The notes below the pieces were generated by a model. That model made no database searches, was not told the origin of the DNA, and worked only from the letters and a program-made list of their open reading frames with translations. From positions 1-64,000 of the forward strand of contig CAADGE010000006.1 of assembly GCA_900696465.1 (NCBI GenBank): DNA of 64,000 nucleotides. Reading direction: 5' to 3'. Origin of the DNA: an uncultured Planctomycetota bacterium. GTDB taxonomy: Bacteria; Planctomycetota; Phycisphaerae; UBA1845; UTPLA1. Below, piece by piece: positions 36,064 through 52,613 of this stretch. Within the stretch, counting starts at the first letter, position 1; every line of letters starts with the position of its first letter. The position numbers and the translations under genes were made by a program.

Positions 36064-38277
36064 TCAATCCCCCCGGCTGCCGCCTGCCTGCCCCATCGCC
36101 CCCAGCTCCTCGGCTGATGCATGATGCCCCGGATCAATCCGCAATGCGGCTCGAAATTGCCCCGCCGCCTCCTCGACACGCCCTGCAAATCTCAGCGAGA
36201 GGCCCAGGTTGTAGTGTGCCTTGACCAGAGAATCAGTGTTGCCGCCAGAGAACCGCCGAATCGCCTCACCATAGGTTGTAATCGCCTCGTCCACCCGCCC
36301 CAGTTCCGCGAGGACCAGCCCCAGGTTCACTCGGGCCTCCGTATAGCCCGGATTCATCCGCAATAGCTCTTGATACACCCCCACCGCGGAATCCCGACTG
36401 CCTGCCGTCCAGAGCGCATTTCCAAGATAGAAGTAGGCCTGTTTATAGTTCGATCGCAGACTGATCGCTCGGCGAAGCGGCTCGATGGCCTCTGCATTCC
36501 GACCCAACTGCATGAGGGCCGCGCCGTAGGCGAAGTACGACTCCGCGCGAACCTTCCCCGGCGCATGCTCGATCGCTTCTTTGAAGGCCTGCGCCGCCTC
36601 CGCAACCCTTCCGTCCAGCAGCAGCGCCTTTCCCTTGTTCTCCCGCGCCGCAAGAAAACCTGGATCGAGCACCAACGCTCGTTCAAACTGCTCGAGCGCT
36701 GTTTTCATCTCTCCACGCGATAGCAGTTCATACCCCAGCGCATTGTGCGACCGCGCCGGCGCAAGGGAACGCTCCGCCGTCTGCGTCCACAGCGCCACCG
36801 GGTCTGCATAAAGCGCGTTGCGCCGAATCGTCAGCGTCGTCAGCGCCACCGCAATGCACAGCAGTACCCCCGCCGCGGAAAGTTCCGTCGCCGTGTACCT
36901 GCCGAGCTTGATCTGCGGTCCACCGCCAACGTTGCCGACGAAACCTCCGCCTCGCTCCGGAAATCCGCCCGTCACTGCTCCACTCCGCGCGTACAACCTC
37001 CACGCCACCGCAACGAACCAGACCATCGCGCCAACAACGCCTGCCAGCGGCAGATACATCCGATGCTCGAAGGCGAGGTCCTTGATCGGCACGAAACTCG
37101 ACGTCGGCAGCAGAATCAGAAAAAACCACGAACCGGCGTAACCCGCCGCGATGCGCCTCCACGTCCCCCAGATGCACGCGACGACCAGCGCCGCAACCAG
37201 AATCGCCGGCCCCCAGATCGACAGGCCCGTACTCGCCACCTGCCAGCCGTAGTCGAGGCACTGCCCCGTTGGCCAGAAAGCCAGTCGCAGATAGTGGAGA
37301 ATCACACCCGGCTGGGTCTGGAGATATTCCAGCGGCGTCACTCCCTGGTAGCCAAACCCCACCGTGGCCGTATCAGGTGACTCCGCGATCACACCGCTGA
37401 ACACCCCCAGACCGGCCAACACCAGCCAAGTCGCCGCCAACCCGCAATAGAGCGGCCACCGCTGACGAATGGCCGCCGCAAAGCTGCCCGCCAGAAACGT
37501 CCGGTCATACAGCAGCACGACGACCGGCGCCGTCACCATCACTGCCTTGGTTGCCATACCTGCGGCACAGAAGATCACCGCGGCAACCATCCACCGCTGT
37601 GGTCGATTGACTCCTGCCGCACGCATCGCGGCATAGAGCGTGAGCAGGTAAAACAGGCCCATCATCGACTCACAGCGCTGAATGACGTAGGTCACACTCT
37701 CCGTCTGCAAAGGATGAACAAGCCAGATTAGCGCCACGGCAAACGCAGCAAAGGTAGTCCCCGGCGAGCGAGCCGCCGCTGCGTCCTCGCGATACGGGGG
37801 TCCCGGCTCGGCAATCTGTCCTTCCGCTCCACTTACTGCAGTTAACTGCCCGCCCAGCTTCAGAATCGTCCGCCGCACAATACCAAACAACACAAGGGCC
37901 GCCGCGATGTGTATGCACAGATTGAAAATGCGATATCCTCGGGGGTTCAGCCCGTCGATCGCGTAATTGATCGCCAGCGTGAAATCCGTCAGCGGTTGCG
38001 ATGAATCGAAGAATGCTTCAACCGGCAGGAGCTGCCGGATCGTCGGATTCTGCACGATCGCGATCTGATCATCGAAGACAAACGGCCCGTCGAGACTGTT
38101 CCAGTACGCCCCGACACCGAAGGCAAAGAGCAGCACGACGGCGGCAATCAAGCCCGGCAAACCCGACCTGCGATTCCGCGCCTCCCCGCGCTCGCGCTGC
38201 CTGGACGGCCCTCCTTCGCGCATGCGGCCGCTGCCGCGTAACGTTCGTTCCCGCGAATGGCGCGATCCGCCCATCAT
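36064..38277 (-). CDS. Polytopic membrane protein with C-terminal TPR array
   Basis: The protein is about 737 residues. After a basic N-terminus, TM1 (LIAAVVLLFAFGVGAYW) leads into SLDGPFVFDDQIAIVQNPTIR, an acidic first loop typical of the eukaryote-like TMTC/GT-C proteins. Roughly ten hydrophobic segments follow to about residue 490. The last 230 residues are about six TPR repeats (ALGYELLSRGEMKTALEQFE, NKGKALLLDGRVAEAAQAFK, YGAALMQLGRNAEAIEPLRR and so on). By analogy it could be an O-mannosyl- or other protein-glycosyltransferase with TPR substrate binding; this is inference from architecture. ATG 38277/38274 are both possible starts and ATG 38223 is a shorter option. Confidence 0.75.
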   Translation of the reverse strand: MMGGSRHSRERTLRGSGRMREGGPSRQRERGEARNRRSGLPGLIAAVVLLFAFGVGAYWNSLDGPFVFDDQIAIVQNPTIRQLLPVEAFFDSSQPLTDFTLAINYAIDGLNPRGYRIFNLCIHIAAALVLFGIVRRTILKLGGQLTAVSGAEGQIAEPGPPYREDAAAARSPGTTFAAFAVALIWLVHPLQTESVTYVIQRCESMMGLFYLLTLYAAMRAAGVNRPQRWMVAAVIFCAAGMATKAVMVTAPVVVLLYDRTFLAGSFAAAIRQRWPLYCGLAATWLVLAGLGVFSGVIAESPDTATVGFGYQGVTPLEYLQTQPGVILHYLRLAFWPTGQCLDYGWQVASTGLSIWGPAILVAALVVACIWGTWRRIAAGYAGSWFFLILLPTSSFVPIKDLAFEHRMYLPLAGVVGAMVWFVAVAWRLYARSGAVTGGFPERGGGFVGNVGGGPQIKLGRYTATELSAAGVLLCIAVALTTLTIRRNALYADPVALWTQTAERSLAPARSHNALGYELLSRGEMKTALEQFERALVLDPGFLAARENKGKALLLDGRVAEAAQAFKEAIEHAPGKVRAESYFAYGAALMQLGRNAEAIEPLRRAISLRSNYKQAYFYLGNALWTAGSRDSAVGVYQELLRMNPGYTEARVNLGLVLAELGRVDEAITTYGEAIRRFSGGNTDSLVKAHYNLGLSLRFAGRVEEAAGQFRAALRIDPGHHASAEELGAMGQAGGSRGD

Positions 38278-38580
38278 CCACCGTCGATCGACAAAGAAGA
38301 AGCTGTCGATCACGCTGCAATCGTGCTCGACTTCCACGAGCACCGCCTGGCCGCACGCAATCAGGTCGTTGCAACACGACAGATAGCAGCACCGCTCGAT
38401 AGAATACAGGACATGAAAGATTGCCGCCCCTTCATCTTCCCTGATGAAGCGGGCAGCTCCAACGCGTTGGTTCGAATGACCCGATGGCTGGCAGGTCAGC
38501 CGCTGCGAGATTCTGCAAGCCGCCTAGACTCACGATGCTGCCGCGACAGTGCCCTTGTGCATCCGTGCACGGGTCCGACG

Positions 38581-38931: not shown

Positions 38932-39417
38932 TTAACGGCCGGGTTGCCGCCCTTCGGCTTCGGCCCGACGAAGCGCTTCCAGCGCCCGGGCCTGTATCTC
39001 TTCCGCACTTGCCTGATACCGCTCCAGGTCGCGGTAAAAGTCCTCCCGGCTGCGGATCTCGATGTGATCCCTCACACCGCAGACCACGACCTCCCGGCCT
39101 AGCCCCGAAGGTCGAAGCAGCCGATCCGGGATGACCACCCGTCCCTGGCTGTCCAGGTCCAGATGCTCGGCGATGCTGAAGTAAATGGACTCAAACTCTG
39201 ACAGATTCGTATCCGGCAAAAGACTCGGCCGGCCATAGGTCGACATCGCATCAAACTGACGTTCGGTGTACAGACAAAGCGTTCGGGGCCGCCGGCTGGG
39301 AACCAGCACCAGTTGCGGGCCTTCCCGATCAAGATCGAGCCGGTTCCGCAGCTTGGCCGGGATCGCAAGGCGATTCTTCTCATCGATCCCGTGTTCGTAA
39401 TAGCCGGTAAGGACCAT
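38932..39417 (-). CDS. mraZ: Transcriptional regulator MraZ
   Basis: The 161-residue protein has the two AbrB-like half domains: GYYEHGIDEKNRLAIPAKLR near the N-terminus and LDLDSQGRVVIPDRLLRPSGL around residue 90, then a charged helical tail. MraZ binds direct TGGGN repeats and usually represses its own dcw cluster. Here no rsmH, ftsL, ftsI or mur gene follows; the next same-strand gene is the small hypothetical and then the TPR membrane protein. GTGGG elements overlap its promoter, so autoregulation is likely. Confidence 0.93.
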   Translation of the reverse strand: MVLTGYYEHGIDEKNRLAIPAKLRNRLDLDREGPQLVLVPSRRPRTLCLYTERQFDAMSTYGRPSLLPDTNLSEFESIYFSIAEHLDLDSQGRVVIPDRLLRPSGLGREVVVCGVRDHIEIRSREDFYRDLERYQASAEEIQARALEALRRAEAEGRQPGR

Positions 39418-39618: not shown

Positions 39619-40719
39619 TCACAGCCCGCCCCGGATCAACTTTTCGTACAGATCAGCCCACTGGGCCACGACCTGTTCAATCCCGTGCCGCGCGAGGACC
39701 CGCTGTCGGCCCGCCTCCCCCATCCGAGCCGCCGCCTCCGGTGCGTTCATCAGGCGTGTGAGTGCCATAACGAAGGCACTCGTGTCATTCACGCGACACA
39801 GCATTCCTTCCCTCCCATCGACGATCAGTTCCCGACAGGCGCCGATGTCGCTCGCAATCACCGCGCAGCCGCAGGCCATCGCCTCCAGCACCGTGTTGGG
39901 GCAGCCCTCCGTACGCGACGGAAACAAGAGACAGTCCGCCGCCTTCAGCCAAGCTGCGCATTGCTCCGACCATCCCGCAAAGCGAACCCGATCACCAAGT
40001 CCCAGCTCTCGTGCCCGCGCTTCGAGTCCGGCGCGTTCCGGCCCATCTCCCAGAAGCACGGCGCAGACCTTCCGCGATTTACCCACGCGCTGCACGACCT
40101 CCAGCAACACCGGGAGATTCTTCACCGGGTCCATCCGCCCAGCCCACACGATCAGCCAGGAATCCTCAGCGATACCCCAGTGTCGTCGATCAATCGCCGA
40201 GACAGCATCCAACACACGCAGATCGATACCGTTCGGAATCACGCGGATCTGTTCCGATGGATAGCACAGGTCTTCGCGCAGATGCGCCGCCACCGCCTCC
40301 GAGTTGGCGACGTGAACGTCCGACGCCCCTGCTGAAAACGCCTCTCCCCAGCGATGCCAGGCCCGTTCAATCTCAATGGTCACTGTGGAAGTAATAATCG
40401 GCCGCGGCCGATCCCACCGACCAACGAGCCGCGCAGCCGTATTGGCATGAAACAGCGAAGCATGCACCAGGTCCGGCTGGTAATAACAAATATGCCGCGC
40501 AAGCCGAAACAGGCAGCTTGCATCCAACCGCCCCCGAGCATCGCATGAGAATGTTTCGATTCCCCCTGAGGAAAGCACCGTCGACAACGGTCCCGGCCCG
40601 GTCAGACAGCCGACGACTGGCTCAATTCCGACATCCCGCAGGCCCCGAGCCAGCCGTACCAGACGTAGCGGCAGCCCGCCCCGCTGCAGGTCCGTGGACA
40701 GCATCATCACGCGGAGCAT
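39619..40719 (-). CDS. Glycosyltransferase family 4
   Basis: The 366-residue protein has a GT-B fold. The N-terminal domain has MMLSTDLQRGGLPLRLVRLARGL, and the C-terminal domain has WAGRMDPVKNL, LLGDGPERAGLEARARELGL, and the nucleotide-sugar motif EGCPNTVLEAMACGCAVIASDIGACREL with its Glu pair. It is cytoplasmic or membrane-associated and adds a sugar to a lipid-linked or polysaccharide acceptor. It begins about 30 bases after the giant coiled-coil gene and shares its strand, so the two are probably co-transcribed. That neighbour's Wzz-like part suggests cell-surface polysaccharide work. Confidence 0.88.
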   Translation of the reverse strand: MLRVMMLSTDLQRGGLPLRLVRLARGLRDVGIEPVVGCLTGPGPLSTVLSSGGIETFSCDARGRLDASCLFRLARHICYYQPDLVHASLFHANTAARLVGRWDRPRPIITSTVTIEIERAWHRWGEAFSAGASDVHVANSEAVAAHLREDLCYPSEQIRVIPNGIDLRVLDAVSAIDRRHWGIAEDSWLIVWAGRMDPVKNLPVLLEVVQRVGKSRKVCAVLLGDGPERAGLEARARELGLGDRVRFAGWSEQCAAWLKAADCLLFPSRTEGCPNTVLEAMACGCAVIASDIGACRELIVDGREGMLCRVNDTSAFVMALTRLMNAPEAAARMGEAGRQRVLARHGIEQVVAQWADLYEKLIRGGL

Positions 40720-40749
40720 GGCGATCTGTCCGTCATCAGAGGATTAGAG

Positions 40750-43700
40750 TCAGTGCGCCGCAGCCGGCGCCGCAACCATGCGCCGACGCCCCGGCACGAA
40801 AAACATCGTCGCCAGAAAGACCATCAGCCCCACGCCGCCACCCAGCCCCGCCGCGGCAAAACGCTTCTCAGGATCAAAGACCGGAGGGACTTCCGAGTCC
40901 AGGGCTCGATAACTGACCGATCCTGGTATGCTGACCTTGCCCGATTGCGACACTCGCCCGATCTCTTCATCCGTCGCCTGCAGGTTGTTCTCGATCGAGG
41001 CGATCCGCTCTTCCTTCATGCGAATCTTCTCCTGCATCAGCCGCAGATTGGCCAGCGCCGTTGCATCCATCGTTGCGACTGCATCGATCTTCAGGAACTC
41101 ATCCGAAAGCGCCTGGTGTCGGCGCGTCGCATCTTCCACCGCCGACCGCAAGGCCGCGTGCTGCGTCCGTCGCGCCTGTGATCGCTCAGCCGCCGCCTCC
41201 GACGCAAGCTGTTCGCGATGCCGCCCCTGCAACTTCTCGATGCGCGGACCCAAGTCACCGATGGCGTCGCAGGCCGCCTTCAGCGGCAAGTTGTACCGAG
41301 GCACCACCTGTCGCGCCTGCACGATCCAGTTGTTCCTCGCCTCCAGGTTGTCATGCGCCAGACTCGTCAGCGTGTTCTGGATGATGCGCCGCTTGGTCAT
41401 CTCCGACCCTTCCCGGCCGATCGCATCTGCTTTCTCCGCCGCAGCACTGAACGGCACACCCGACTTCCCGTAATACTCCCGCACCAGCGTCTCGGCCCGT
41501 GATTGCAGCTCAAGAATCGACTCCGGCGAATCCGCCTCCTGCCAACGGGCGATCTGTCCGGAGAGTGCATCCCACTGCGACGTGAACTGCCGCGTCTGTG
41601 CCTCGTAATCCGACAGGTCCGCCTCCAGTTGTTCAAGTTCTCGTCGAATCTCCTCGTTCGTCTGAATCTGCTGCTGCGATTTGACCTCCGCGATCATCGC
41701 CTCCAGCGTCACGCCCACCGATTCCAGTGCCCCTTGCGAATCCCCGATCACCCGCCGCAACTCACCCCAGCACTCCATCGCCCGGGCACGCTGCTCCGCC
41801 ATCGCCTGCGAGAGTTCATCATCCCTGGCGTACGACTCCGCCAGTCGCTCCGGATCCGGCTCGATCGGTCCTTCCTCCGCTGGCTTCGACTCAAACGCCG
41901 CCAGCGCCGCCTTCGCATCTTCGATTTCCGTGAGTGCTTCGCTCACCTGGCGTTTGAGCTCGCTCTTGCGCGTCCGGGCGCGCTCCACATCGACCGTATC
42001 CGCCGTCACGTCCACCTGCGATCGAAGCTGCGACAGCGATCGCTTCTCATCGTCCAGTTCGCTCACGAGCGTCTGTCGATCCGACTGCAATCGTGCCAGC
42101 CGTCGCTGCACCTCTGCCTGGGTGCTGGCCCGTTGACCCACCGACGCCTGGTACGCGCCGCCGATCAGATCCAGCCACCGCTGCGTCGTTGCCTGCTCCG
42201 CAAGCCCCGCCTGTGCCGTCAGCTCGATGGCCATCCCCGAGGGTGCGAGGCCGATCCGAATCTGCCCGTCGCGGACCCGTTGCTGAAGGTCTACGCCCGC
42301 CGCGGCTGAGGCCTGTGTCAGCACCGCCGGGTCGTTCAGCAGCGTGTCGAGGTGCTCCGCCGCCGTCATCGCCGCCGCATCAACTGACTGCAGCGCGATC
42401 AGGCCGCGAACCTCGCACGTCCGCGTCGGCGTGTACATGTAGCCCAGCGCCGCCAGCGCTCCGAGTGCCACTGAAACGACACCAGCGATCACCGGCCGCC
42501 GCAGACTCTTTCCAGTCGCCGCGGCTTCAATATTCTGGCGCCGATGCGAGCCGGCAGCCACTCGTTCCGATTCCGGAATCGCCGCGCCCCAGTCCTTCTC
42601 ATCCAGGAACTCCAGCGGCACGATGTCATCGTACTCGCGCGTCGACTCTCGTCGATTTCGCTCGGGAGGCTCATCCATCTCTGCCGCCGGTTCGAGCTCC
42701 ACCGTCGAATCCGATTCGTCCTCGATCATCGCATACGCTTCGCGTTCGATCTCGGCCACTTCACGCGCCTTGGCACGTGCCCGCAGTTCTGCACGCTCCT
42801 GCCGCAGGGCCTCCTGCTCCTCACGAATGGCTGCCTGACGCCGTCGCAGATCCGCGATCTCCGATTCCAGCTGCGCTCGCTCGTCCGCCAGCGTCTCATC
42901 GATCGATTCCTGCCGACGGCAATACTCCCGCTCAAGCTCCTCGCGCTTCCGAGACAGCTCACGTTCCAACTGTGAACGCCGCGAGCGAAGCTCTTCCTCA
43001 AACGAGGCCAGCCGCTGTTCGAGCTGTGACTCCGTCTCTTCCAGACGCTGACGACACCGCCGCTCGATCTCTTCCTCGCTCCGCGTCAGGTCCGCCTTCA
43101 CGCGAACCTCCTCCGCCTTTCGTGCTTCCCGTTCCTCTTCCAGTTGCCGCCGAAGCCGGTCTATTTCCTGTGCCTGTCGCTCGATGGCTCGCTCGCGCTC
43201 CTGCAATTCCTCCATCTGACCGCGCAGGCGATGTTCCGCTTCTTCCATCTCTGCTGCTCGGGCCGCTGCCTGCTGCTCACGCTGCCGGAGCATCTCCTCG
43301 CGCGACTGCGTCTGCGTCGCCATGTCTCGCGCCCGGTGCATCAGGATTTCGAGCTTTTCGGCCGCCTCGCGATGATCGCGCTGCGACGCCTCCAGCTCCT
43401 GTCGCTTGCGATCCAGCTCCGCCTGCTCACGCTCAATGCGATCTCTTTGCGCCTCAACTTCCCGTGCCCGCGCATCAAGCTGCTCCTCACGGACCACCAG
43501 TCGCCTGGCTTCTTCGTCCAGCGAGGCCCCGACTTCCTTCGAAAACGCCACCCCCGGCTTGAATTCCGCCCGCTGGTGCTGAAACTCTTCGCGTTCGATC
43601 GCCAGCTCACGGCGCTCGCGTTCCACCCGCTCGCGCTCCTGCGCGATCAGCGCCCGTTCGCGCTTCGCTGCCTCCAGCTCGCTGGCCAGCGTCCGCAGTC

Positions 43701-46700
43701 GCGCATCGACTGTGGCCGCGTCTGTCGCCAGTTTCGTCTTACGCTCGCGAAGCCGCTCGGCCTTCTCCACAAGCTGCCGTCGCAGCTCTTCGGTCTCCGT
43801 CATCCGCCGAGTCAGTTCGGCGCGCGATTCCTCCGCCTCGCTGCGAATGGCCGCGACACAGGATCGCTCCTCCGCCAGCGACCGCTGCTGCGCCTTCAAC
43901 TCCGCCTGCGCTCGCTCGACTTCCGACTCCACCTCGCGCAGCCGCGCCTCCCGACCCGATACTTCCTCACGCTGCCGCACCAGTCTCGCCGCCTCGGTGG
44001 ACACTTCCTCGCGCTGGCGTTCCAGCGCCTCGCGATCCTTCTCCAGCCGCACCAGCGTGTCTGAAAGCTCCGCCTGCTGAATCCGAAAGGCCGTCTGCTC
44101 CTGATCCAGCGCCTCACGCTCCACGCGCTGCGCCGCTTGTGCCTCTTTCAGCTTGGCACGCTGTTCGAGCAGCTCCTTCTTCAATGCGATCAGCTCGTCG
44201 CCCTGCGCCGCATGCGTCTTGGCCAGCTCTGCCAGCCGTTCGCGCTCCAGCTCCTGCTCGCGGCCGACGAGCTTCATCCGCTCTTCGAGGGCCTTCGCCT
44301 CGGATAGCCGCTCATGGATTCGATACTCCCGCTCTTTCTGCTCCTGGTCCTGCGCCGTGATCTTCCCGCGCAGTTCCTCAAGACGCTCATGGGCCTTCTC
44401 GATCTCACGGCTGCGGGCCTCCAGCGCCGTCCGCTGCTCACGGGCCTGCGCCTGTGCCCGCTCCAGTTCCGCCTGTTCCGCCGCCAGCCGTTCCCGCGCC
44501 GCGCCGATCTGACGCTCCGTTTCGGCCATGCGCGTTTGCCACGCCTGATACTTCGACTCCCGATCGGCTAGCTCCGCCGTCGCCCGCGTCAGTTCCTCTT
44601 CGCGCAGCTCCAGCTCTGTCACTCGCTTCGCCAGCGCCGCCTCGCGCGATTCGATCCCCGCGACGACCTGTCGCACATCCTGCTCGCGCTTCGAGAGCGA
44701 CGCCTCACGCGAATCCAGCGTCGCACGCAATGATTCCAGTTCCGCCTGACGTTTCTGCGTCAGTTCGTCCAGTTGCGCCCGCGCCGATTTCGCCTCCTCG
44801 GCGATTCGCTCGCGCTCGACTCTCGCCAGTTCTGCCAGTTCCTTCGCCCGCGCGGAAAGTTCTGCAGATTTCGCATCGCGCTCCTGGTCAAACTGCTCCT
44901 GCCGCGACCGGAACTCCACCTCCCGCATCGACAGGTCCTGCGCCGTGTTCTCCAGCGCCTGCCGCCGATCGGCGATCTCCCGGTCCACCTCGGCCAGTCG
45001 CGTCGCCGCGATGCGATCCAGTTCCGCCACGCGCTTCGTCAGTGACTGCAAGCGCTGATCCAGCTCGCTGCGCCGGGCCGTCGCCTCGCGCTCAATCTCC
45101 GCCAGCCGGGCCGCCGCCTGACGCGCCTGATCCGCCTCGCGCTCGCCGAGCATCCGCTCGCGCGCGTCGAGTTCCTCCTCGCGTGCCGCCAGTTGCCGGT
45201 CGATCTCCGCGATCCGGGCCTTGAATTTCTTCTCCAGACTTCGCTCGCGATCGGCCAGCGCCTTGTACTTCTGCTCAAGCTCCGCGTGCTTCGTGGCCGC
45301 TTCGCGCTCGATCTCCTCCAGACGAGTCTGCTCTGCATGGCGCAGCACCGCCTCGCGCTCCGCCAGCTCCTTCTCCTTCGCCTCCACCTTGCTCGTGAAA
45401 CCTGCCGCATGACGCTCGATTTGCTCCAGACGCGCCGCGGCCGCACGTTCCAGCTCCGCCTGTTTCTTGGCCCAGGCCCGTTCACGCGCGTCCAGTTCCG
45501 CCTGTCGCGACGCTACCGTCTTGTCGAGTTCCGCCTGACGCGACGTGATGGTCTTGTCCAGCTCCGCCAGTCGCGCCGCCGATATCTGATCCACCTCGGC
45601 CTGCCGTGCAGATACCGCCCGGTCCACTTCCGCCAGACGCGCCCGCGCAGTTGCCTCCGCCTCGCTGATCGCTGCCTGAGAACGTTTCTCCGCGTCGGTC
45701 AGCAGCGATTGAGCCTTCTTCTCCGCCTCCGCGATTCGAGATTCGCTCTTGCGCAGGGCTTCATCAATGGCTGCCTGTGCTTTCTTCTCGGCCTCCGCCT
45801 CACGCGCCGTCGCCGCACGTTCCCGCGCCTCGATCGCCGCCTGCTTCTGAACGATCTCCCGTTCGACCGTCTCCAGCCGGCCGCGCGTGCTTGCATCCAG
45901 CTGCGCCTCGCGCCGCGCGATCTCCTGTTGTTTCACTTCCAACTGAACGCGCAGGGCCTCCGTCTCACGTTGCACCTGCGACAGGCGCTCCGTGGACATC
46001 CGTTCGATCTCTGCTTCGCGATCCGCCAGGGCCCGCTGACGGGCTTCGATCTGCACCAGCCGACTCGACGCCTCCCGCTCAATCTCCGCCCGCCGCGCCG
46101 CCAGCGTGCGCTCGAGCTGCGCTTCGCGTTCCGAAAGCTCCCGCGACTTCTGCTCAAGCTGCTGCTGAAGCGTCATCGCACCGCGCTCGATCTGCTCCAG
46201 ACGCGCGCCCGCTGCCTTCTGTAGCTCCTGCTTCTGCTGCTCGATGAAGGCCCGATTCGCCTCTTCGATGGCCGCCTGTCGCGCCTCGATCTCCGTCCAG
46301 CGGCGCTGAATCTCCGCCTGTTCGGCATCCATCGCCGCGCGGCGCGCCGCGTAGTCCTGCTCCAGTTCTTCCTGACGCCGCTGGGTCGCTTCGTGGAGTT
46401 CCCGCGTTCGCGCTTCCAGCTCCGTCTGATAGGCCTTTAGCTGGGCGCGCTCCTTCGCCAGCGCCGCCTTGATCTTCTCCGCGCGTTCATCCAGCGCCGC
46501 CTGCGCCCGCGCAAAACGCCGACGCAATTCCTCTGCCTTGGCCGACGACGATCCGCCGGTCCCGCCCGAGGCAGATCGCCCGCGGTTACCGGCTCCCGAT
46601 GCACCGCCTTTGATACCCGGAAATGGAATCGTGCTGCCCGCGCCGGTTCCGTCGGGCGCACCGGCGCCCGAGGAATCTGCACGATAATCACTTGGCAGCG

Positions 46701-47154
46701 AGGATGGACTCATCGGCGTGCCCCTGCCCCCGATCGTATAGTGTAACGGCTCCCGCCGGCTTTGCCCCGGCATCGTCGGGCTCGACGGGCGGCTCCCGAA
46801 AAGCCAATGGCCGCTGTGAACATTGAACAGATCCGGTGTTCGGCCGGACCAGTTCTTCAACCCGCCGCCACCGTTCGGACCCGTTCCGGTCGGCGAGAGC
46901 ATGACGCCCGAGGAGAGCGCCGCCAGCGCCGAGGCCTCGTCCGGATACTGCTCCGCCCACGACCGCGCCGTCGACAGGTGCGCCGAGACCCGCTGCAGCC
47001 GCTCCAGGTCGCGCGCCATCTGCGACTGAAGCTCGCTCGCCGCACGCGAGAGCGGCGGCAAACCGCCCGACGAAAGTTCCGGATTCGTCTCCGGCACGAT
47101 GCCGCTGTGTCCCTGGGTCGAAGCTCCGGACGAATCGCTTGGTGTTGGGTTCAT
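40750..47154 (-). CDS. Giant membrane-anchored coiled-coil protein with C-terminal polysaccharide-co-polymerase-like region
   Basis: The protein is 2134 residues. A 180-residue low-complexity Ser/Gly/Pro head is followed by roughly 1300 residues of almost unbroken coiled coil, with repeated 11/7-residue patterns such as AAREAEAEKKAQAAI, ARLAEVDRAVSARQAEVD and REEELDARERMLGEREAD. A TM segment near 1555-1577 (VIAGVVSVALGALAALGYMY) leads to PTRTCEVRGLIALQSVDAAA, a short extracytoplasmic beta/helical region, another long helical stretch, and a final TM near 2100-2120 (LGGGVGLMVFLATMFFVPG) with a basic tail. Two TMs bracketing helices resemble Wzz-type chain-length regulators, with the coiled coil in the cytoplasm. 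It begins 135 bases after the FHA gene and is followed by the GT4 gene. Function is unknown. Confidence 0.8.
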   Translation of the reverse strand: MNPTPSDSSGASTQGHSGIVPETNPELSSGGLPPLSRAASELQSQMARDLERLQRVSAHLSTARSWAEQYPDEASALAALSSGVMLSPTGTGPNGGGGLKNWSGRTPDLFNVHSGHWLFGSRPSSPTMPGQSRREPLHYTIGGRGTPMSPSSLPSDYRADSSGAGAPDGTGAGSTIPFPGIKGGASGAGNRGRSASGGTGGSSSAKAEELRRRFARAQAALDERAEKIKAALAKERAQLKAYQTELEARTRELHEATQRRQEELEQDYAARRAAMDAEQAEIQRRWTEIEARQAAIEEANRAFIEQQKQELQKAAGARLEQIERGAMTLQQQLEQKSRELSEREAQLERTLAARRAEIEREASSRLVQIEARQRALADREAEIERMSTERLSQVQRETEALRVQLEVKQQEIARREAQLDASTRGRLETVEREIVQKQAAIEARERAATAREAEAEKKAQAAIDEALRKSESRIAEAEKKAQSLLTDAEKRSQAAISEAEATARARLAEVDRAVSARQAEVDQISAARLAELDKTITSRQAELDKTVASRQAELDARERAWAKKQAELERAAAARLEQIERHAAGFTSKVEAKEKELAEREAVLRHAEQTRLEEIEREAATKHAELEQKYKALADRERSLEKKFKARIAEIDRQLAAREEELDARERMLGEREADQARQAAARLAEIEREATARRSELDQRLQSLTKRVAELDRIAATRLAEVDREIADRRQALENTAQDLSMREVEFRSRQEQFDQERDAKSAELSARAKELAELARVERERIAEEAKSARAQLDELTQKRQAELESLRATLDSREASLSKREQDVRQVVAGIESREAALAKRVTELELREEELTRATAELADRESKYQAWQTRMAETERQIGAARERLAAEQAELERAQAQAREQRTALEARSREIEKAHERLEELRGKITAQDQEQKEREYRIHERLSEAKALEERMKLVGREQELERERLAELAKTHAAQGDELIALKKELLEQRAKLKEAQAAQRVEREALDQEQTAFRIQQAELSDTLVRLEKDREALERQREEVSTEAARLVRQREEVSGREARLREVESEVERAQAELKAQQRSLAEERSCVAAIRSEAEESRAELTRRMTETEELRRQLVEKAERLRERKTKLATDAATVDARLRTLASELEAAKRERALIAQERERVERERRELAIEREEFQHQRAEFKPGVAFSKEVGASLDEEARRLVVREEQLDARAREVEAQRDRIEREQAELDRKRQELEASQRDHREAAEKLEILMHRARDMATQTQSREEMLRQREQQAAARAAEMEEAEHRLRGQMEELQERERAIERQAQEIDRLRRQLEEEREARKAEEVRVKADLTRSEEEIERRCRQRLEETESQLEQRLASFEEELRSRRSQLERELSRKREELEREYCRRQESIDETLADERAQLESEIADLRRRQAAIREEQEALRQERAELRARAKAREVAEIEREAYAMIEDESDSTVELEPAAEMDEPPERNRRESTREYDDIVPLEFLDEKDWGAAIPESERVAAGSHRRQNIEAAATGKSLRRPVIAGVVSVALGALAALGYMYTPTRTCEVRGLIALQSVDAAAMTAAEHLDTLLNDPAVLTQASAAAGVDLQQRVRDGQIRIGLAPSGMAIELTAQAGLAEQATTQRWLDLIGGAYQASVGQRASTQAEVQRRLARLQSDRQTLVSELDDEKRSLSQLRSQVDVTADTVDVERARTRKSELKRQVSEALTEIEDAKAALAAFESKPAEEGPIEPDPERLAESYARDDELSQAMAEQRARAMECWGELRRVIGDSQGALESVGVTLEAMIAEVKSQQQIQTNEEIRRELEQLEADLSDYEAQTRQFTSQWDALSGQIARWQEADSPESILELQSRAETLVREYYGKSGVPFSAAAEKADAIGREGSEMTKRRIIQNTLTSLAHDNLEARNNWIVQARQVVPRYNLPLKAACDAIGDLGPRIEKLQGRHREQLASEAAAERSQARRTQHAALRSAVEDATRRHQALSDEFLKIDAVATMDATALANLRLMQEKIRMKEERIASIENNLQATDEEIGRVSQSGKVSIPGSVSYRALDSEVPPVFDPEKRFAAAGLGGGVGLMVFLATMFFVPGRRRMVAAPAAAH

Positions 47155-47288
47155 CAGTTGGCCTTCGTGACTTGCTCACCGGTCTCGACGTCCCGCATCC
47201 GCGATCAACGCCGGCGGGCGTGCGATCCTTTCCATGATCTCTGCCTTCTCAAGTCGCGGCGCCGATTGTCACGGTGCCGCCGCTTCAC

Positions 47289-49871
47289 TTAGTCCGGGTC
47301 CCGTGCGTAGGATTCCTGCCCGGTTTCCGTGGAGCCGTCGGTTCGAATGCCCGCACTCACCGACCGACTGATCTCTTCGAGCCCCTCGCGCAGCGAGGAG
47401 AACTGATCACTCAGCTTCGAAGTCAGCTGTCGACCCGTACTCGACCAGCGCATCGAACGTGACACGCTCGGCCCCGACACCTCACCGAAGTCGGACTTGG
47501 TCTCCGTTGGCCGCTCCCACGGGCTCGGCTCCTGTTCCAGTTGCACGACCGCCCGATGCAGCCCTTCAAGTTCACGTTCCAATTGCGCAAGGTGCCGAAC
47601 ATCTGACACTGGCTTTGTCAAACCTTCGGCGCGATAGGTCGAATCCTTTTCCGTGAACGACCGGGCCGAGAATGCAAAACCGCGGTCCGTACGCCTTCCG
47701 CCAGCCGACAGCGGCCGCGCCGTGTCATGAATCGCCCGGATCCATGAATCCAGCGTCTCCTGTCGCGTCAGCAGTTCCGCTTCGACGTCCGACAGCCGCA
47801 CACTCAGCACCTGTTCCAGCTCCGTCGCCGTGCGCTCAAGCTCGGCCCGGCCCGCCTCCACCAGCGCCGACCGTCGCGACTGAAGCGCCGTCTCTTCTGC
47901 CTTCAGGTTTGACTGCTGCTCAGAGATGAGCTCCTCGATCGCCTTGCGCCGCGCACTGGCCAGACGCGCCAGCTCGCTGGCCTTGCGCTGCAACTCCGCC
48001 TGACGAATCCGCAGCCGATGCCGCTCGCCTTCCAGACCGATCCGCAGTTCCCGAACCCGCTCGTCATGAAGGTCGCCGATTCGCGCCAGACGCTCCGCCT
48101 CCATCGCCAGGTCCTGCTTGATGCGCTCCGCCTCGTTGATCCGTGTCTCGATCGCCGCGGCCTTGCTCTCCAGGCGACGCAGACGAGTCACCAGCGCCTC
48201 GCGCTCTTTCGACAGCGTCAACTTCGCCCGCGTCAGCGTCTGATAGCGCGCCTCGTGCTCCGCCTGTTGAACCTGGTGCTTCTCACGCGAACGCGCCAGC
48301 TCCTCCGCCTGCCGCTCGATCTCGAATTTCTGCGTCTCAAGTCGCGACTCGCTCTCCTGCATCTCCAGACGTTCTTCCCGAACCAGCCGCGCCAGCTCAT
48401 TCACCTGCTCCTGCAACGAAGCGCCGTCCGCATCAATCGGAAGCCCGGCATCCCCGCGCCGCTTGTCGCGCGACGAACCCGTGGCCGACTCCATCACCGC
48501 CCTCACCCGCGCGATCGGGTCTTCCACGTCCTCTGCGGACGTCTCTTCCGCATGCGACCGTGTCGCCCGCGCCGCCTCTAGCAGCCGCCGGGCCTGCGCC
48601 TGAAGCTGCTCCTGACATGATCGCAGCCGGTTGCGCTCCGCATCCAGTTCCTCGCGGAGCTTTCGCGCCCGTTCGTCCAGTGCCTGCTGGGCCGCGACGA
48701 CCCGCTGTCGAAAGTCCGGCGCGACCGACTCCAGTGCGCCGCGACTCTCGTCGATCAGCCGCTGCGCCCGGAGCGACTCCGTCGACCGCGATCCATTTCC
48801 ATCCGACTCGCGCGAATGATCGCCTTTCACGTAGGTCTCCTTCCGGCTCGTACCGGCTCCCGCGCGGCCGCCTGCGTTACCCCAGTTCGCCGCGGATGCC
48901 GCCGATCGTTCGTCGATCTCTTCCACCTCTTCCAGCAGTTCCAGCACGTCCGAGTCGTCCAGCCGCTCGGCGGACTGGCTCTCCCACGTCTCGTCGTTCG
49001 CAGCACCATCCGCACGGCCCATCCGTTCCATCTCCCGGATCAGTTCGCGCGAAGCCGCCTCCTCATCCAGTTCCCCGACATCGTCCGCGAGCGCCGATGC
49101 CTCATCGTGAAGACCGTCGCCGTTCGCCGGAACGCGACCGGCTACCATCCGCTCGGCATCCGACGCGTCATCCGTCACCCGCCAGCCCGTGGCCGTCCGG
49201 CTCGTTCCTCCATAGGGCTCGCCCGCCGCTGAGGCCTCGGTCTCGAAGATCAGATCATGTGTGCCGACTCCGATGGTCTCACCGGCTGCGAGCCGTGACT
49301 CATTCACCCATCGACCCCGCACGCGGACGCTCCGCCGCCCGCGAAGGTCACGCACCATCGGCCCTTCACTCGTCCACACCACGAGGGCGTGCCGTGGAGC
49401 AATCGTGCCGTCACCCAGAACAATATCACACGCCGCATCGCTGCCGATCAGCAGCACCGGGTCTTCGCTGCCCACCGTGCCGATCGTCTGATCTTCTCGC
49501 AGCGAGAACCGCCGCACCGAAGTCACGATCGTCTCTGAGATCGACTCGATCTCCACCGCAAACTCGTACGGGCCGATCGCCAGCGCATCGCCGTCGTCCA
49601 GGCGCGACCACCGCACGAAAGAACCGTTCACCCGCGTACCGCCCGGTGCACCTAGATCACAGACAAAGACGCCGCTGCCCAGCCGCACCAGCACCGCATG
49701 GGCTTCGTCCACCACGCCGGGTGACAGCATGATGTCACTACCCGCACCGGAGCCGATCAACGTCAGCGGCCGCGTCACTTCGTACGGCGCGGTGTCCCCG
49801 CTCGCCGCGTGCACGTCGTTCAGGCGAATCGTGGGATATCCCATCTCTGGCGTTTCTGGCTTGGCGCTCAC
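47289..49871 (-). CDS. Two FHA-like domains plus long coiled coil
   Basis: The protein is about 860 residues. Two FHA-fold segments occupy roughly residues 10-100 (LTLIGSGAGSDIMLSPGVVDEAHAVL, CDLGAPGGTRVNG) and 115-205 (LLIGSDAACDIVLGDGTIAPRHALVV, VRDLRGRRSVRVRGRWVNES). FHA domains bind phosphothreonine, but the usual Ser in the S-x-x-H motif is Asp in the first and Ala/Pro in the second, so binding may be altered. An acidic linker and about 450 residues of coiled coil follow. It is cytoplasmic. GTG 49871 is chosen for its AGAGG nine bases upstream; ATG 49844 begins at MGYPTIRLND. It is upstream of the giant coiled-coil gene and probably its partner. No Ser/Thr kinase is adjacent. Confidence 0.78.
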   Translation of the reverse strand: MSAKPETPEMGYPTIRLNDVHAASGDTAPYEVTRPLTLIGSGAGSDIMLSPGVVDEAHAVLVRLGSGVFVCDLGAPGGTRVNGSFVRWSRLDDGDALAIGPYEFAVEIESISETIVTSVRRFSLREDQTIGTVGSEDPVLLIGSDAACDIVLGDGTIAPRHALVVWTSEGPMVRDLRGRRSVRVRGRWVNESRLAAGETIGVGTHDLIFETEASAAGEPYGGTSRTATGWRVTDDASDAERMVAGRVPANGDGLHDEASALADDVGELDEEAASRELIREMERMGRADGAANDETWESQSAERLDDSDVLELLEEVEEIDERSAASAANWGNAGGRAGAGTSRKETYVKGDHSRESDGNGSRSTESLRAQRLIDESRGALESVAPDFRQRVVAAQQALDERARKLREELDAERNRLRSCQEQLQAQARRLLEAARATRSHAEETSAEDVEDPIARVRAVMESATGSSRDKRRGDAGLPIDADGASLQEQVNELARLVREERLEMQESESRLETQKFEIERQAEELARSREKHQVQQAEHEARYQTLTRAKLTLSKEREALVTRLRRLESKAAAIETRINEAERIKQDLAMEAERLARIGDLHDERVRELRIGLEGERHRLRIRQAELQRKASELARLASARRKAIEELISEQQSNLKAEETALQSRRSALVEAGRAELERTATELEQVLSVRLSDVEAELLTRQETLDSWIRAIHDTARPLSAGGRRTDRGFAFSARSFTEKDSTYRAEGLTKPVSDVRHLAQLERELEGLHRAVVQLEQEPSPWERPTETKSDFGEVSGPSVSRSMRWSSTGRQLTSKLSDQFSSLREGLEEISRSVSAGIRTDGSTETGQESYARDPD

Positions 49872-50482: not shown

Positions 50483-51154
50483 TCACGCCGGCGGCAGATG
50501 AATCTGCCCCACGTGCTGCGTCTCGAACGTCTTGCCGGTCAGAAGTTCCCTGAACCGCACGACAAGGGTGATCTGTCGATTTGCCGGCGGTCGCCCGGCC
50601 AGCCACGGCGCCTTGACCGTAAAGTGCGAGGTCATGAACCGCCCGAACCACGCCGCTCGCGTCGCGTCTGCGTCCAGTTCCACACGCGCCACAAGCTGTT
50701 CGCCCTGCGGGGCGGCCAGGTCGTACGCCTCCAGCACCACGGAACCCGCCGCTTTGATGAGGTCCCCATCCGCGTCGCGCAGCCGAAGATACGCCACCAC
50801 GCCCTCATCGACCCCGTCGCGATTCTCGTCGTACCCCCCCGAAAGGCGCTCCAGCTCGATCCGATCGACGCGCACAAGCCGTGCCAGCCGTTCGTCTCCA
50901 TCGAGCCCGCGAAGCTCTGCAATCATCCGCGCCTGCTGCGAAAGCTCCTCATCCTTCCGTTGAAGCTGCCGGGTCTGTTCCAGCACGCGATCCTCCAGCA
51001 AATGGATCTGCGTGACACGTGAATCAGCGCCCCCTCCACCGTTGCAAGCCCCGAACAGCGCCAATGAAAAGAAAGCAACGGCCGCGCAACTCCTCACGCC
51101 CCGCGAAGGGGCGAACACCAAGCGACACCCGACTTGCACAATACCGCCGCGCAT
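50483..51154 (-). CDS. Predicted lipoprotein with coiled coil
   Basis: The 223-residue protein starts at ATG 51154, which overlaps the clpP stop codon as TGATG, so it is translationally coupled. The N-terminus is basic and then hydrophobic (AAVAFFSLALFGAC); Cys in LFGAC is a likely lipidation site. A coiled-coil segment follows (HLLEDRVLEQTRQLQRKDEE...), then a globular beta-rich domain (GSVVLEAYDLAAPQGEQLVARVEL). I recognise no family. The context of proteolysis genes may be only transcriptional. Confidence 0.7.
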   Translation of the reverse strand: MRGGIVQVGCRLVFAPSRGVRSCAAVAFFSLALFGACNGGGGADSRVTQIHLLEDRVLEQTRQLQRKDEELSQQARMIAELRGLDGDERLARLVRVDRIELERLSGGYDENRDGVDEGVVAYLRLRDADGDLIKAAGSVVLEAYDLAAPQGEQLVARVELDADATRAAWFGRFMTSHFTVKAPWLAGRPPANRQITLVVRFRELLTGKTFETQHVGQIHLPPA

Positions 51155-51789
51155 CAATCATCTTCCGTCACGGGTCGCTTCACGATCTCCGGTTGCCGCT
51201 CCAGCACCCGGTCCACCAGCCCGTAGTCCATCGCCTCGGTCGGGTCGAGCCACAGATTGCGATCGCAATCCTTCTCAATCTTCTTCATGTCCGTTTTCGA
51301 ATGTTTGGCGATGATTCCATAGAGAATCTCCCGCAGACGCAGAATCTCCTGCGCCTCGATCGAGAGGTCCGTGGCCGCGCCCTGAAGCACGCCTCCGATC
51401 AGCGGCTGGTGCAGCAGCACCCGCGAATGCGGCAAAGCATAGCGCTTGCCCGCCGCGCCGCCGCACAGGAGGATCGCCCCCATGCTCGCGGACACGCCGA
51501 TGCAGTACGTCGCCACGTCGCACCGGAGAAACTGCATCGTGTCATAAATCGCCAGGCCCGCAGAGACGCTGCCGCCGGGCGAATTGATGTAAAAGTGAAT
51601 GTCCGCCCGGGGGTCTTCATTCGCCAGAAACAGCATCTGCGCGATGATGACGTTGGCCACTTCATCATCAATGCCGCCGCCCAGAAAGACGATCCGGTCC
51701 TTGAGCAGACGCGAATAAATGTCGTACGACCGCTCGCCCCGGCCGGTCTTCTCGATCACGAATGGTATCAACGTCTGATTATCAGCCAT
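51154..51789 (-). CDS. clpP: ClpP-family serine protease subunit with Asn at the third triad position
   Basis: The 211-residue protein has the ClpP core: [34 protein letters not shown], Ser102 in SASMGAILL and His127 in VLLHQPL. Aligning YGLVD with the E. coli enzyme puts the third residue at position 178 in [19 protein letters not shown], which is Asn where E. coli has Asp171 (ERDRF). It should form a tetradecameric ring with the adjacent paralogue or alone. The order is tig, clpP, clpP, lipoprotein. ATG 51789 gives the normal length. No clpX or clpA is in the window. Confidence 0.9.
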
Positions 51790-51893
51790 GTGGCACTCCT
51801 GCATTCACCCGTCCATGCGATCCGGCCGCCTTGCCGAATCCCGTGTTTCCTGCTCCGCCGCCAGCCCGCATTGCCGGCTGGCCGTTTCGACGT

Positions 51894-52544
51894 TTACTTC
51901 TTCTTGTCCTTATCACCGGAAGCCACGAGGATCTCATCGACCAGGCCCCACTCCACCGCCTCCTGCGGATTGATGAACTTGTCGCGCTCGGTCTCCTGCT
52001 CGATCTTCTCCATCGACATCCCTGTGTGAAGCGACAGGATCTCCAGCAGCTTCTTCTTGTCGCGAAGAATCTCCTCCGCCTGGATGCGGATATCCTCCGC
52101 CTGCCCGGTGATCCCGCCCCACGGCTGGTGCAGCATGATCTTGCTGTTCGGCAGGGCGTAGCGCTTGCCTTTCGTGCCGGCCGTCAGAATGATCGCCCCG
52201 CCGCTGGCCGCCTGACCGATCGAATACGTCGCGATGTCGCACGTCAGAAAGCGCATCGTGTCGTAGATCGCCAGCGTCTGGTCCACCATCCCGCCGGGAC
52301 AGTTGATGTACAGATGAATGTCCTGGTCCTTCTTGATGCTCTGTAAGTAGAGCAGCCGCATGATGACCAGACTCGCCGTCCGATCGTTAATCGGGCCGGC
52401 CAGAAAGATAATGCGATTCTCCAGAAGCATGTCCTCGATCGACATCTCCCGGATCCGCTGATATGGCGCACCGCCCTGCGCCATCGTGCTGGCCAGGTGC
52501 GGCGGCATCGGCCCCGAATACGGCATCACTCCATCATGCGTCAT
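51894..52544 (-). CDS. clpP: ClpP-family serine protease subunit with intact triad
   Basis: The 216-residue protein has Ser114 (QAASGGAIIL, Gly in place of the usual Met after Ser), His139 (IMLHQPWGG) and Asp188 (ETERDKFINPQEAVEWGLVD). Other ClpP signatures include LLENRIIFLAGPINDRTASLVI and LYINCPGGMVDQTLAIYDTM. A lysine-rich tail ends it. ATG 52544 has GAGGA about eight bases upstream. It is followed on the same strand, after about 100 bases, by the second clpP, and preceded by tig. Proteolysis requires an ATPase (ClpX/ClpA) encoded elsewhere. Confidence 0.93.
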   Translation of the reverse strand: MTHDGVMPYSGPMPPHLASTMAQGGAPYQRIREMSIEDMLLENRIIFLAGPINDRTASLVIMRLLYLQSIKKDQDIHLYINCPGGMVDQTLAIYDTMRFLTCDIATYSIGQAASGGAIILTAGTKGKRYALPNSKIMLHQPWGGITGQAEDIRIQAEEILRDKKKLLEILSLHTGMSMEKIEQETERDKFINPQEAVEWGLVDEILVASGDKDKKK

Positions 52545-52613
52545 TACGTCGTCCTCGCCTCTTTGACTGCGGCCGCGCCGTCGGTCTCGCCGCGGCACGC
52601 GCGCTGCGCGTCC

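Follow-up and report, generated by a model that had tools for sequence, protein, structure and literature searches.

What could be built from a protein with two FHA domains, a membrane protein of 2,134 residues and a GT4 glycosyltransferase whose genes stand side by side in a planctomycete? The three genes lie in a stretch of 64,000 nucleotides from an uncultured Planctomycetota bacterium (contig CAADGE010000006.1), which is called the window here. The ORF listing of the window places the FHA gene, the gene for the giant protein (the giant) and the GT4 gene in this order, with short gaps, on the minus strand (Table 1). This arrangement and the architecture of the three proteins, as given in a preliminary description of the DNA, are confirmed by the ORFs, by Pfam and by the relatives.

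Table 1. Features of the gene set, in window coordinates
Feature	Position	Strand	Basis
FHA protein gene, encoding tandem FHA, a linker and a coiled coil	47289..49871	-	Pfam; start by alignment to relatives
FHA domain 1, residues 27-120 (ORF from 49907), Ser in place of the pThr-binding Arg	49548..49829	-	Pfam, model, fold search, residues
FHA domain 2, residues 134-223, with other residues in place of the pThr Arg, Ser and Asn-Gly-Thr	49239..49508	-	Pfam, model, fold search, residues
Shared module, FHA-protein copy, residues 398-448	48564..48716	-	Ungapped test and profile model
Giant gene (2,134 aa), encoding the N-terminal arm, then TM1, the periplasmic domain and TM2	40750..47154	-	ORF and hydropathy
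Shared module, giant copy at membrane-distal arm start, residues 209-260	46375..46530	-	Ungapped test and profile model
Coiled coil of giant, presumably cytoplasmic, residues ~186-1488, ~190 nm if one continuous helix	42691..46599	-	Pro-free runs and periodicity
TM1 of giant, residues 1553-1575	42430..42498	-	Hydropathy, model
Periplasmic domain of giant, residues 1576-2097, Wzc/Wzz-like predicted topology	40864..42429	-	AlphaFold, fold search
TM2 of giant, residues 2098-2121, then 13-residue tail	40792..40863	-	Hydropathy, model
GT4 glycosyltransferase gene, 366 aa, E-x7-E motif	39619..40719	-	Pfam
MraZ, conserved neighbour downstream of GT4, not counted in the machine	38932..39417	-	Pfam and neighbourhood

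Conservation and forms of the gene set

The giant was found in 14 genomes of one Phycisphaerae family (f1). In 11 of these 14 the FHA gene adjoins the giant gene, in two it is fused to it, and one genome could not be judged; the GT4 gene is the next listed gene after the giant in 13 of the 14. G007, whose FHA gene is on another contig, falls outside the adjacency count, G005, which is cut by its contig, was left out of the judged genomes, and in G012 the GT4 gene and the giant are 5.6 kb apart. The genes are therefore not scattered: FHA adjoins or is fused to the giant in 13 of 14 genomes, and GT4 comes next after the giant in 13 as well. Because both the proteins and the gene order are conserved in relatives, the set is not a product of chance. 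Thus, a conserved order of the three genes, as had been proposed, holds when relatives are checked for scattering: the set is kept together across the genomes of the family. A promoter scan returned no promoter-like sites, and a terminator scan found five terminator-like sites where 6.1 would be expected; the three genes have no such site at their ends. When 294 genomes of the phylum were scanned with the membrane anchor of the giant, the only strong match was the window itself, accompanied by four weak partial ones. A literature search, which was not exhaustive and covered titles and the openings of abstracts, returned neither an FHA protein with a co-polymerase nor a giant coiled coil of Planctomycetes.

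The family also holds fused and short forms. Two proteins of 2,094 (L013) and 2,074 residues (L044) join FHA domains, arm and anchor in one chain; they pair in the tree (support 98.8/98), and the split forms stand apart from the fused and short forms (99.8/99). The sister genome G004 encodes a short anchor of 802 residues, with GT4 and mraZ adjoining, and no FHA gene was found there. Loss of the anchor from G004 had been considered and is wrong, since the short anchor is present and had been hidden by wrong-frame ORFs.

The GT4 protein scores above cut-off with the N- and C-domain profiles PF13439 and PF00534 and contains an E-x7-E motif. Its top NCBIfam match is TIGR03088 (stp2), a PEP-CTERM/XrtA glycosyltransferase, at 157.9 bits, far under the cut-off of 409.05 bits, so it is not a member of that group. 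The GT4 tree alone does not resolve branching within the family. The tie of GT4 to the giant is weakened because GT4 also adjoins mraZ, with no giant there, in two relatives from the same order (L017 and L019).

The arm and the anchor of the giant

Pfam gave no match on the giant. Its arm is free of proline over residues 180-1199 and 1201-1488, and the I, L, M, V and F residues of positions 206-1488 recur most strongly at exactly 3.5 residues, where the power is 26.7; a second peak, at period 3.6, has a power of 9.7, and the ten other periods tested give at most 1.9. When A, Y and W are also counted, the 3.5 peak is 8.1. This period was measured in the giant of the window only, while the stretch before TM1 is 1,372 to 2,016 residues long across the 11 split genomes. 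The heptad periodicity and the proline-free runs fit the ~1300 residues of coiled coil previously ascribed to the giant. The periodicity is seen directly; we infer the length of the arm, up to ~190 nm, and its position in the cytoplasm. To call the arm cytoskeleton-like, as was done at the outset, is too strong, because genes and predictions describe a membrane-anchored arm and offer no evidence of filaments. An SMC-type identity of the arm was rejected: the NCBIfam scores, 20-31 bits where the cut-offs are 300-729, amount to coiled-coil noise.

Hydropathy and a structural model place two TM helices around a large periplasmic domain of ~520 residues, as in polysaccharide co-polymerases, with sidedness assumed. 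By hydropathy, the TM-to-TM spacing is 527-528 residues in the two fused proteins and 541-550 in the other 12 genomes. The AlphaFold monomer model of the anchor runs from TM1 through a strand, helices, two strands, helical hairpins and a strand to TM2, a topology that fits the Wzz/Wzc fold with its alpha/beta domain near the membrane and its helical insertion. Wzc chains align over this TM1-to-TM2 span in VIA-align with Z of 10.5-11.5 and rmsd of 7.0-34.9. A Z of ~11 falls below ~13, and up to that value the tool cautions that matches between helical bundles may reflect common arrangements. Among the 50 entries listed, the Wzc entries are those whose aligned range spans TM1 to TM2. In a Foldseek search with the anchor, Wzc is at rank 44 (E 5e-3), and unrelated coiled coils rank higher.

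None of 11 giants matches Pfam Wzz at E up to 1, and a PDB sequence search with the anchor profile gave 32 weak matches, all at E 0.03 or worse and with no co-polymerase among them; they comprise coiled coils, designed bundles and further chains with no relation to the anchor, and were set aside. The profile match between the giant and the Wzz/GumC proteins of relatives is 90.0% with the pooled alignment but 2.8, 1.2 and 59.6% when the three subgroups are taken one by one; this comparison drew on 13 of 16 Wzz loci and omitted L070, L078 and L079, which have no clean two-TM ORF. The C-terminal tyrosine kinase that is a PCP-2a trait is absent from the giants of the 14 genomes, in which only 32-38 residues separate the start of TM2 from the protein end. 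The 16 window proteins scanned include no Wzx, Wzy, Wza or tyrosine kinase, and elsewhere in the same genome there is a sub-threshold Wzz match (23.7 bits, cut-off 25.5). The Wzz-like nature of the two-TM module in the preliminary description is supported by predicted fold only, through the AlphaFold model and the Wzc alignment. The anchor resembles polysaccharide co-polymerases of the Wzc type in its predicted fold, and the whole may be described as a co-polymerase-like variant whose cytoplasmic half is novel.

In the sections of two papers on which we draw (PMC8285477, PMC12004946), Wzc and other PCP-2 co-polymerases likewise have two TMs around a large, mostly helical periplasmic domain, and the cytoplasmic partner is fused or separate (PCP-2a/PCP-2b), as it is with the FHA protein and the giant. 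The phospho-chemistry of a PCP-2 partner can be absent, as with the pseudokinase EcpK described in part of PMC12004946. The giant differs in that its long cytoplasmic part precedes TM1 and is FHA-paired or FHA-ended, and in having neither a kinase domain after TM2 nor a Pfam Wzz match.

More distant Phycisphaerae have proteins with a similar tandem FHA (E to 1e-36). In family f13, eight of nine loci fetched combine tandem FHA and two C-terminal TMs in a single chain, the C-terminal part of which matches that of the giant in a profile comparison (98.8%, compared to 0.3-11.6% for coiled-coil controls). The linker in f13 is Pro/Glu-rich and not coiled coil where it was read (L046, L047 and part of L049), and in family f8 the tail is E/K/R/Q-rich and TMs are absent in eight of 10 loci. 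The periplasmic part of L049 is short.

The FHA protein and a module shared with the giant

For the FHA protein we prefer the start at 49871 over that of the ORF list at 49907 because relatives begin at an equivalent V or M residue; the alignment thus bears out the earlier choice. Pfam reports two FHA stretches, and the FHA fold is found in a predicted model (pTM 0.74) and in a fold search (E 7e-8), the top matches of which include phosphothreonine-binding FHA domains. The Arg of G-R, the Ser of S-x-x-H and Asn-Gly have roles in phosphothreonine binding by FHA domains. Both FHA1 and FHA2 of the window lack this Arg and this Ser; FHA1 retains G-G-T, and FHA2 has R-S-V where aligned PDB relatives have Asn-Gly. 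Among 13 members of the window family, the Arg is missing from FHA1 in 12 and from FHA2 in 12, and the FHA2 Ser is kept in two and absent from 11. In contrast to the window, families f4, f8 and f13 mostly retain both FHA2 residues: of 20 loci, picked from the best and the longest matches outside the window family, 19 have the Arg and 19 have the Ser. The FHA1 Arg is missing from all 20 of these loci too, and so FHA1 may never have had it. Phospho-regulation, initially raised as a possibility, is not supported by these residues in the lineage of the window.

The FHA protein also matches Pfam PF16697, which we take to denote the YscD-type FHA fold. YscD is an inner-membrane protein with a periplasmic part and a cytoplasmic FHA fold that does not read phosphothreonine. 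In these respects YscD/PrgH-type ring proteins are similar to the set described here, which differs in its two TMs and its long arm; among the 16 window proteins there are no type III secretion genes, save the FHA-related match to PF16697 and TPR chaperone-like matches. By analogy, and with no homology claimed, the giant is also comparable to golgins, eukaryotic long coiled-coil tethers with C-terminal membrane anchors: each is a long membrane-anchored coiled coil with a head at the far end, but the giant is bacterial and has a large periplasmic domain.

New here is a coiled-coil module of ~50 residues common to the FHA protein and the giant, which occurs in each of the two proteins throughout the 11 split genomes. 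Its ungapped scores there are 92-123, compared to maxima of 62-77 after shuffling. With HMMER filters and composition correction off, a model made from the FHA copies alone scores the copies of the giants at 51.5-71.1 bits (11 of 11), compared to 17.6 and 23.3 bits for the two fused proteins and 19.2 for the best of 50 other E/K/R/Q-rich ORFs. The reverse model, from the giant copies, gives 46.3-73.2 bits for the FHA copies, 14.3-19.4 for the fused proteins and 13.7 for the best of the other ORFs. G007 (10.6 bits) is outside this count, because its giant is truncated at the contig start. A tie between the FHA protein and the giant, as proposed at the outset, is thus upheld by their fusion in two genomes and by their common module in 11. 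From the similarity of the copies we infer a candidate clasp that would join the FHA head to the arm, and the FHA protein probably pairs with the giant at the far end of the arm.

Proposed working and alternatives

Our overall reading, to which we give slightly less than an even chance, is a two-piece, membrane-anchored, co-polymerase-like assembly with an arm, an FHA head and GT4. The C-terminal part of the giant would be a two-helix anchor bearing a large periplasmic domain, helical and of the Wzc/Wzz type, and would form a ring if Wzc is a guide; the N-terminal two thirds would extend into the cytoplasm as the coiled-coil arm. The FHA protein would bind the far end of the arm through the matching modules, which would place the tandem-FHA head at the arm tip, as in the two fused relatives. 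In the lineage of the window, the head may hold a partner in the cytoplasm through its fold and without reading phosphothreonine. The GT4 enzyme of the same operon-like set would supply a glycan step, and the arm would hold cytoplasmic factors near an envelope glycan machine, or position that machine; the suggested coupling to surface polysaccharide comes from the Wzc-like fold and the adjacency of GT4. A bolder form of this reading is unlikely as a whole: a bacterial long-range tether in which a co-polymerase-like ring bears a bundle of ~190 nm arms, each FHA-tipped, of one chain in some lineages and of two chains joined by the ~50-residue clasp in others, capturing cytoplasmic partners far from the membrane and bringing them to an envelope glycan machine.

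It is somewhat unlikely that the giant is instead a structural envelope scaffold, a strut or landmark for shape, division or protein quality control with no role in polysaccharide synthesis, in which case the Wzc-like fold would be a common helical anchor and GT4 a neighbour only. No other part of the giant approaches the arm in size, none of the further neighbours (mraZ and, identified by eye from their sequences, tig and two clpP genes) belongs to polysaccharide synthesis, GT4 occurs by mraZ without the giant in the two order relatives, the short anchor of G013 adjoins LIPO-ClpP-ClpP-Tig without GT4, and Pfam finds no Wzz match in the giants, all of which would suit a scaffold. However, GT4 follows the giant in 13 of 14 genomes and still comes after the short anchor of G004, where there is no FHA gene or long arm, and among the 50 entries listed it is the Wzc ones that span TM1 to TM2. 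Far less probable is a phospho-regulated complex, in which the tandem FHA would read phosphothreonine on either the giant or GT4, thereby switching polysaccharide synthesis. The confirmed FHA fold, the phosphothreonine binders among its top structural matches and the FHA2 residues kept in f4, f8 and f13 are consistent with such a switch, but neither FHA domain of the window protein has the Arg or the Ser, and most members of its family lack the FHA1 Arg and the FHA2 Arg and Ser.

For the module, we consider it quite unlikely that the two copies are a relic of partial gene duplication, left when an ancestral fused gene split, or a generic coiled-coil start, and not a binding site. Such an origin is compatible with the branching of the fused pair beside the split clade, and copies from the same genome show no sign of co-evolution by identity (0.355 within genomes versus 0.391 across genomes, with 0.9996 of permutations as high as or higher than the same-genome value); furthermore, with default HMMER filters and composition correction no giant copy is reported at E up to 1e-3. 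Yet the copies are still 35-39% identical on average, and they keep their position near the coiled-coil start in 11 of 11 genomes despite arm lengths that differ by hundreds of residues. Moreover, the relic model predicts a copy behind the FHA domains of the fused proteins, where there is no good one (the best, at 14-23 bits, is near residue 570). The 50 other E/K/R/Q-rich ORFs reach at most 19.2 bits.

In the parts of the literature drawn on here, polysaccharide co-polymerases are described with a cytoplasmic kinase or pseudokinase partner, or with neither (PMC8285477, PMC12004946). If the anchor is a co-polymerase, the co-polymerase-like assembly proposed here would extend the range of cytoplasmic halves by an FHA head carried on a very long arm. 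Like PCP-2a and PCP-2b, it would come both fused and split, and in the split form a candidate clasp can be seen. The set also provides fused, split and short forms of one machine within one family. Few Phycisphaerae are in culture, and the gene set may offer an entry point to the envelope glycans of this group.

Composition and conservation of the three-gene set

The window carries genes for a tandem-FHA coiled-coil protein, a 2,134-residue membrane protein (the giant) and a GT4 glycosyltransferase, in that order on the minus strand, all three present as open reading frames and separated by 134 and 30 bases. The architecture given in the preliminary description is correct. Pfam detects two FHA stretches in the first protein and matches the glycosyltransferase to GT4 profiles in full; the giant has two hydrophobic helices, and its residues 206-1488 show a heptad signal with a period of 3.5. 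The FHA fold was also obtained from a structure model (5 sequences, pLDDT 76.5, pTM 0.74), for which the top matches in a structural search were FHA domains (E 7e-8). Division genes are the usual genes behind mraZ; in the window, a TPR protein stands there instead. The small lipoprotein-like gene, whose position is conserved, has no Pfam match and may be a part of the FHA-giant-GT4 system.

Positions of the genes discussed, in window coordinates unless a locus or contig is named
Feature	Position	Strand	Remarks
Subtilase	30687-35951		1,754 aa; bacterial Ig domains and a type I dockerin domain
TPR protein	36064-38343		PMT_2-like membrane half (PMT_2 just below cut-off)
MraZ	38932-39417		
GT4	39619-40719	-	
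Giant	40750-47154	-	2,134 aa
FHA protein	47289-49871	-	
Lipoprotein-like gene (LIPO)	50483-51157		By eye; short coiled coil; flanked by clpP and the FHA gene
Two clpP-like paralogues that follow a trigger-factor-like gene (tig)	51154-54233		By eye
GT4 of genome G298	L043:16321-17115		Frame open from the equivalent of residue 98 onwards only; assembly error or broken gene
Sub-threshold Wzz match, window's own genome	G000:C40:75100-85108		Separate frame of 557 aa; two more GT4-like genes lie nearby

Of 298 genomes searched in the class, 27 matched a profile of 11 giant-anchor sequences (A1; the anchor is the C-terminal two-TM part) at E up to 0.001. In f1, the family of the window, 14 of the 15 listed genomes matched strongly; 8 genomes of the same order but outside f1 gave weaker matches (E 5e-6 to 1e-27), and the other 5 were marginal. 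The matched relatives that bear names are Planctomycetota, Phycisphaerales and Phycisphaerae MAGs. In a phylum-wide search of 294 genomes, the sole strong match was the window's own genome (assembly of 4.14 Mb).

The three genes stay together in relatives: the FHA gene adjoins or is fused to the giant in 13 of the 14 f1 genomes that have the giant. The FHA gene is directly upstream in 11/14, with gaps of 12-175 bases across f1, and the two are fused in G011 (2,094 aa) and G142 (2,074 aa); in G007, a contig end leaves adjacency not judgeable. GT4 is the next listed gene after the giant in 13/14, at no more than 96 bases in 11 of these and roughly 400 bases off in both G007 and G298, the G298 value being an estimate because the GT4 frame there is only partly open. 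In G012, giant and GT4 are separated by 5.6 kb. Behind GT4 comes MraZ in 13/14 (the contig ends in G012), and the GT4-MraZ adjacency also occurs in the order relatives L017 and L019. An upstream tig-clpP-clpP-LIPO block is conserved in seven f1 members (G001, G002, G003, G008, G009, G010 and G054, with one clpP not called in G054), and thus part of the order is background synteny. In G006, G011, G142 and G298, the set order is kept and this block is absent from the stretch fetched.

A shared module, a constant anchor and a variable arm

The coiled coils of the FHA protein and the giant both start with a 50-residue pattern, R-V-x-x-A-Q-x-A-L-D-E-R-A-x-K ... E-R-x-R-L, found within residues 310-448 of the FHA protein and 209-386 of the giant, the membrane-distal start of its arm. 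When the two proteins were compared without gaps over 50 residues, the top match scored 92-123 in all 11 split genomes, whereas heptad-block shuffles (30 for each genome) peaked at 62-77. This match joins the two main module copies in 10 of the 11; in G001, the FHA protein has a second, weaker copy, and it is this one that pairs with the copy of the giant. With HMMER filters and composition correction off, a model from the FHA copies alone scored the giants' copies at 51.5-71.1 bits (11/11), the fused proteins at 17.6 and 23.3, and the best of 50 control ORFs (other E/K/R/Q-rich ORFs of at least 300 aa) at 19.2. The reverse model gave 46.3-73.2 bits for the FHA copies, 14.3-19.4 for the fused proteins and 13.7 for the best control.

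From these sequences, we read the shared module as a candidate clasp that would hang the FHA head on the arm tip. Two observations weigh against a clasp: the giants' copies go unreported with HMMER default filters and composition correction on, and copies from the same genome resemble each other slightly less than copies from different genomes do. If the clasp reading is right, the module would join the FHA protein to the giant at the end of an arm predicted to be ∼190 nm long (1,283 residues at 0.1485 nm each).

The distance between the TM helices is nearly constant (541-550 residues in 12 genomes; 527-528 where FHA and giant are fused), and residues before TM1 range from 1,372 to 2,016 in split forms. 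Wherever FHA could be judged in long-armed f1 genomes, it adjoined or was fused (13/13). Short anchors also occur. The f1 genome G004 has, in order, LIPO, a gene identified by eye as aldo/keto-reductase-like, a protein of 802 aa whose TMs lie around residues 222 and 770, GT4 and MraZ, with no FHA match at the locus (E 0.01) or in the genome (1e-15). In G013, of another family, a 786-aa short anchor is directly behind Tig-ClpP-ClpP-LIPO. Eight order relatives have 59-847 residues ahead of TM1, and no FHA match within the anchor chain by BLAST, nor by Pfam in the 5 scanned. Given these short forms, the anchor seems to predate the arm. In a tree from anchor, GT4, MraZ and FHA, the two fused proteins group together (98.8/98), split forms are set apart from fused and short forms (99.8/99), and G004 is placed beside the outgroups (92.1/84); with some parts missing from short and outgroup rows, long branches and several weak forks, this tree gives no direction between fused first and split first.

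FHA residues and tandem FHA proteins of other families

The FHA residues that bind phosphothreonine are an Arg, a Ser and an Asn-Gly, and in known FHA structures, of which several bind phosphothreonine, the Arg after Gly, the Ser in S-x-x-H and the Asn-Gly align. In 13 f1 proteins, the Arg is missing from FHA1 in 12 and from FHA2 in 12, and the FHA2 Ser is kept in 2; the suggested phospho-regulation is therefore not supported. In three other Phycisphaerae families (f4, f8 and f13; 20 loci, 18 genomes), FHA2 has the Arg in 19/20 and the Ser in 19/20, and FHA1 has the Arg at that place in 0/20. Thus, the FHA2 pocket is degenerate in f1 but intact in its relatives. A known parallel is EcpK, a pseudokinase that partners a co-polymerase (PMC12004946).

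In f13, one chain of 1,515-2,340 aa combines tandem FHA with two near-C-terminal TMs across a long linker in 8 of 9 fetched loci, with TM spacing of 598-645 in 7 and 327 in L049. The linker is Pro/Glu-rich in L046 and L047, the two chains covered full length. At L045-L052, the linker spans hundreds of residues and the FHA2 phosphothreonine residues are intact; the one-chain form is possibly a separate, phospho-reading version. Given the f1 and f13 loci, tandem FHA and a two-TM anchor meet in two families, fused or adjacent. In f8, 8 of 10 fetched loci (L053-L059, L064) encode tandem FHA with an E/K/R/Q-rich tail, likely a coiled coil, and no TM (882-1,298 aa in total); 4 of these 8 adjoin a gene matching the window's TPR protein.

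Likeness of the anchor to co-polymerases

The Wzz-like nature proposed for the two-TM module is suggested by the predicted fold but not by Pfam, as the giant's anchor has no sequence match to Pfam Wzz. In an AlphaFold model of the anchor (5 sequences, pLDDT 78.9, pTM 0.44), the chain between the TM helices runs through a strand, then helices, a pair of strands, a helical stack and finally one more strand. Among 50 entries listed by VIA-align, 8 Wzc entries span TM1 to TM2 (Z 10.5-11.5, rmsd 7.0-34.9), for example 7nhr_C (Z 11.4, 162 residues, rmsd 7.0, 17% identity); designed helical proteins rank above Wzc (up to 16.4), covering residues 293-484 only. The part of Wzc that superposes with Wzz consists of the TM helices and periplasmic motif 1 (PMC8285477). 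Profile comparison of the f1 anchor gave 99.95% with order relatives and 98.8% with f13 C-terminal parts (coiled-coil controls, 0.3-11.6%), and 90.0% with pooled Wzz/GumC of relatives (controls 6.6 and 9.4%); three Wzz/GumC subgroups gave 2.8, 1.2 and 59.6%. Because the subgroup matches are uneven and Pfam Wzz is not matched, we call the anchor co-polymerase-like rather than a co-polymerase. The separate sub-threshold Wzz match in this genome means that the giant may not be its sole co-polymerase-like protein.

The FHA-giant-GT4 set is a real, conserved system, for which our literature search found no name. Its best reading, to which we give a chance just short of even, is that of a co-polymerase-like anchor whose cytoplasmic half is new. 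The three genes would be transcribed jointly, the anchor would form a ring and the set would act on a glycan; a link to polysaccharide is plausible.
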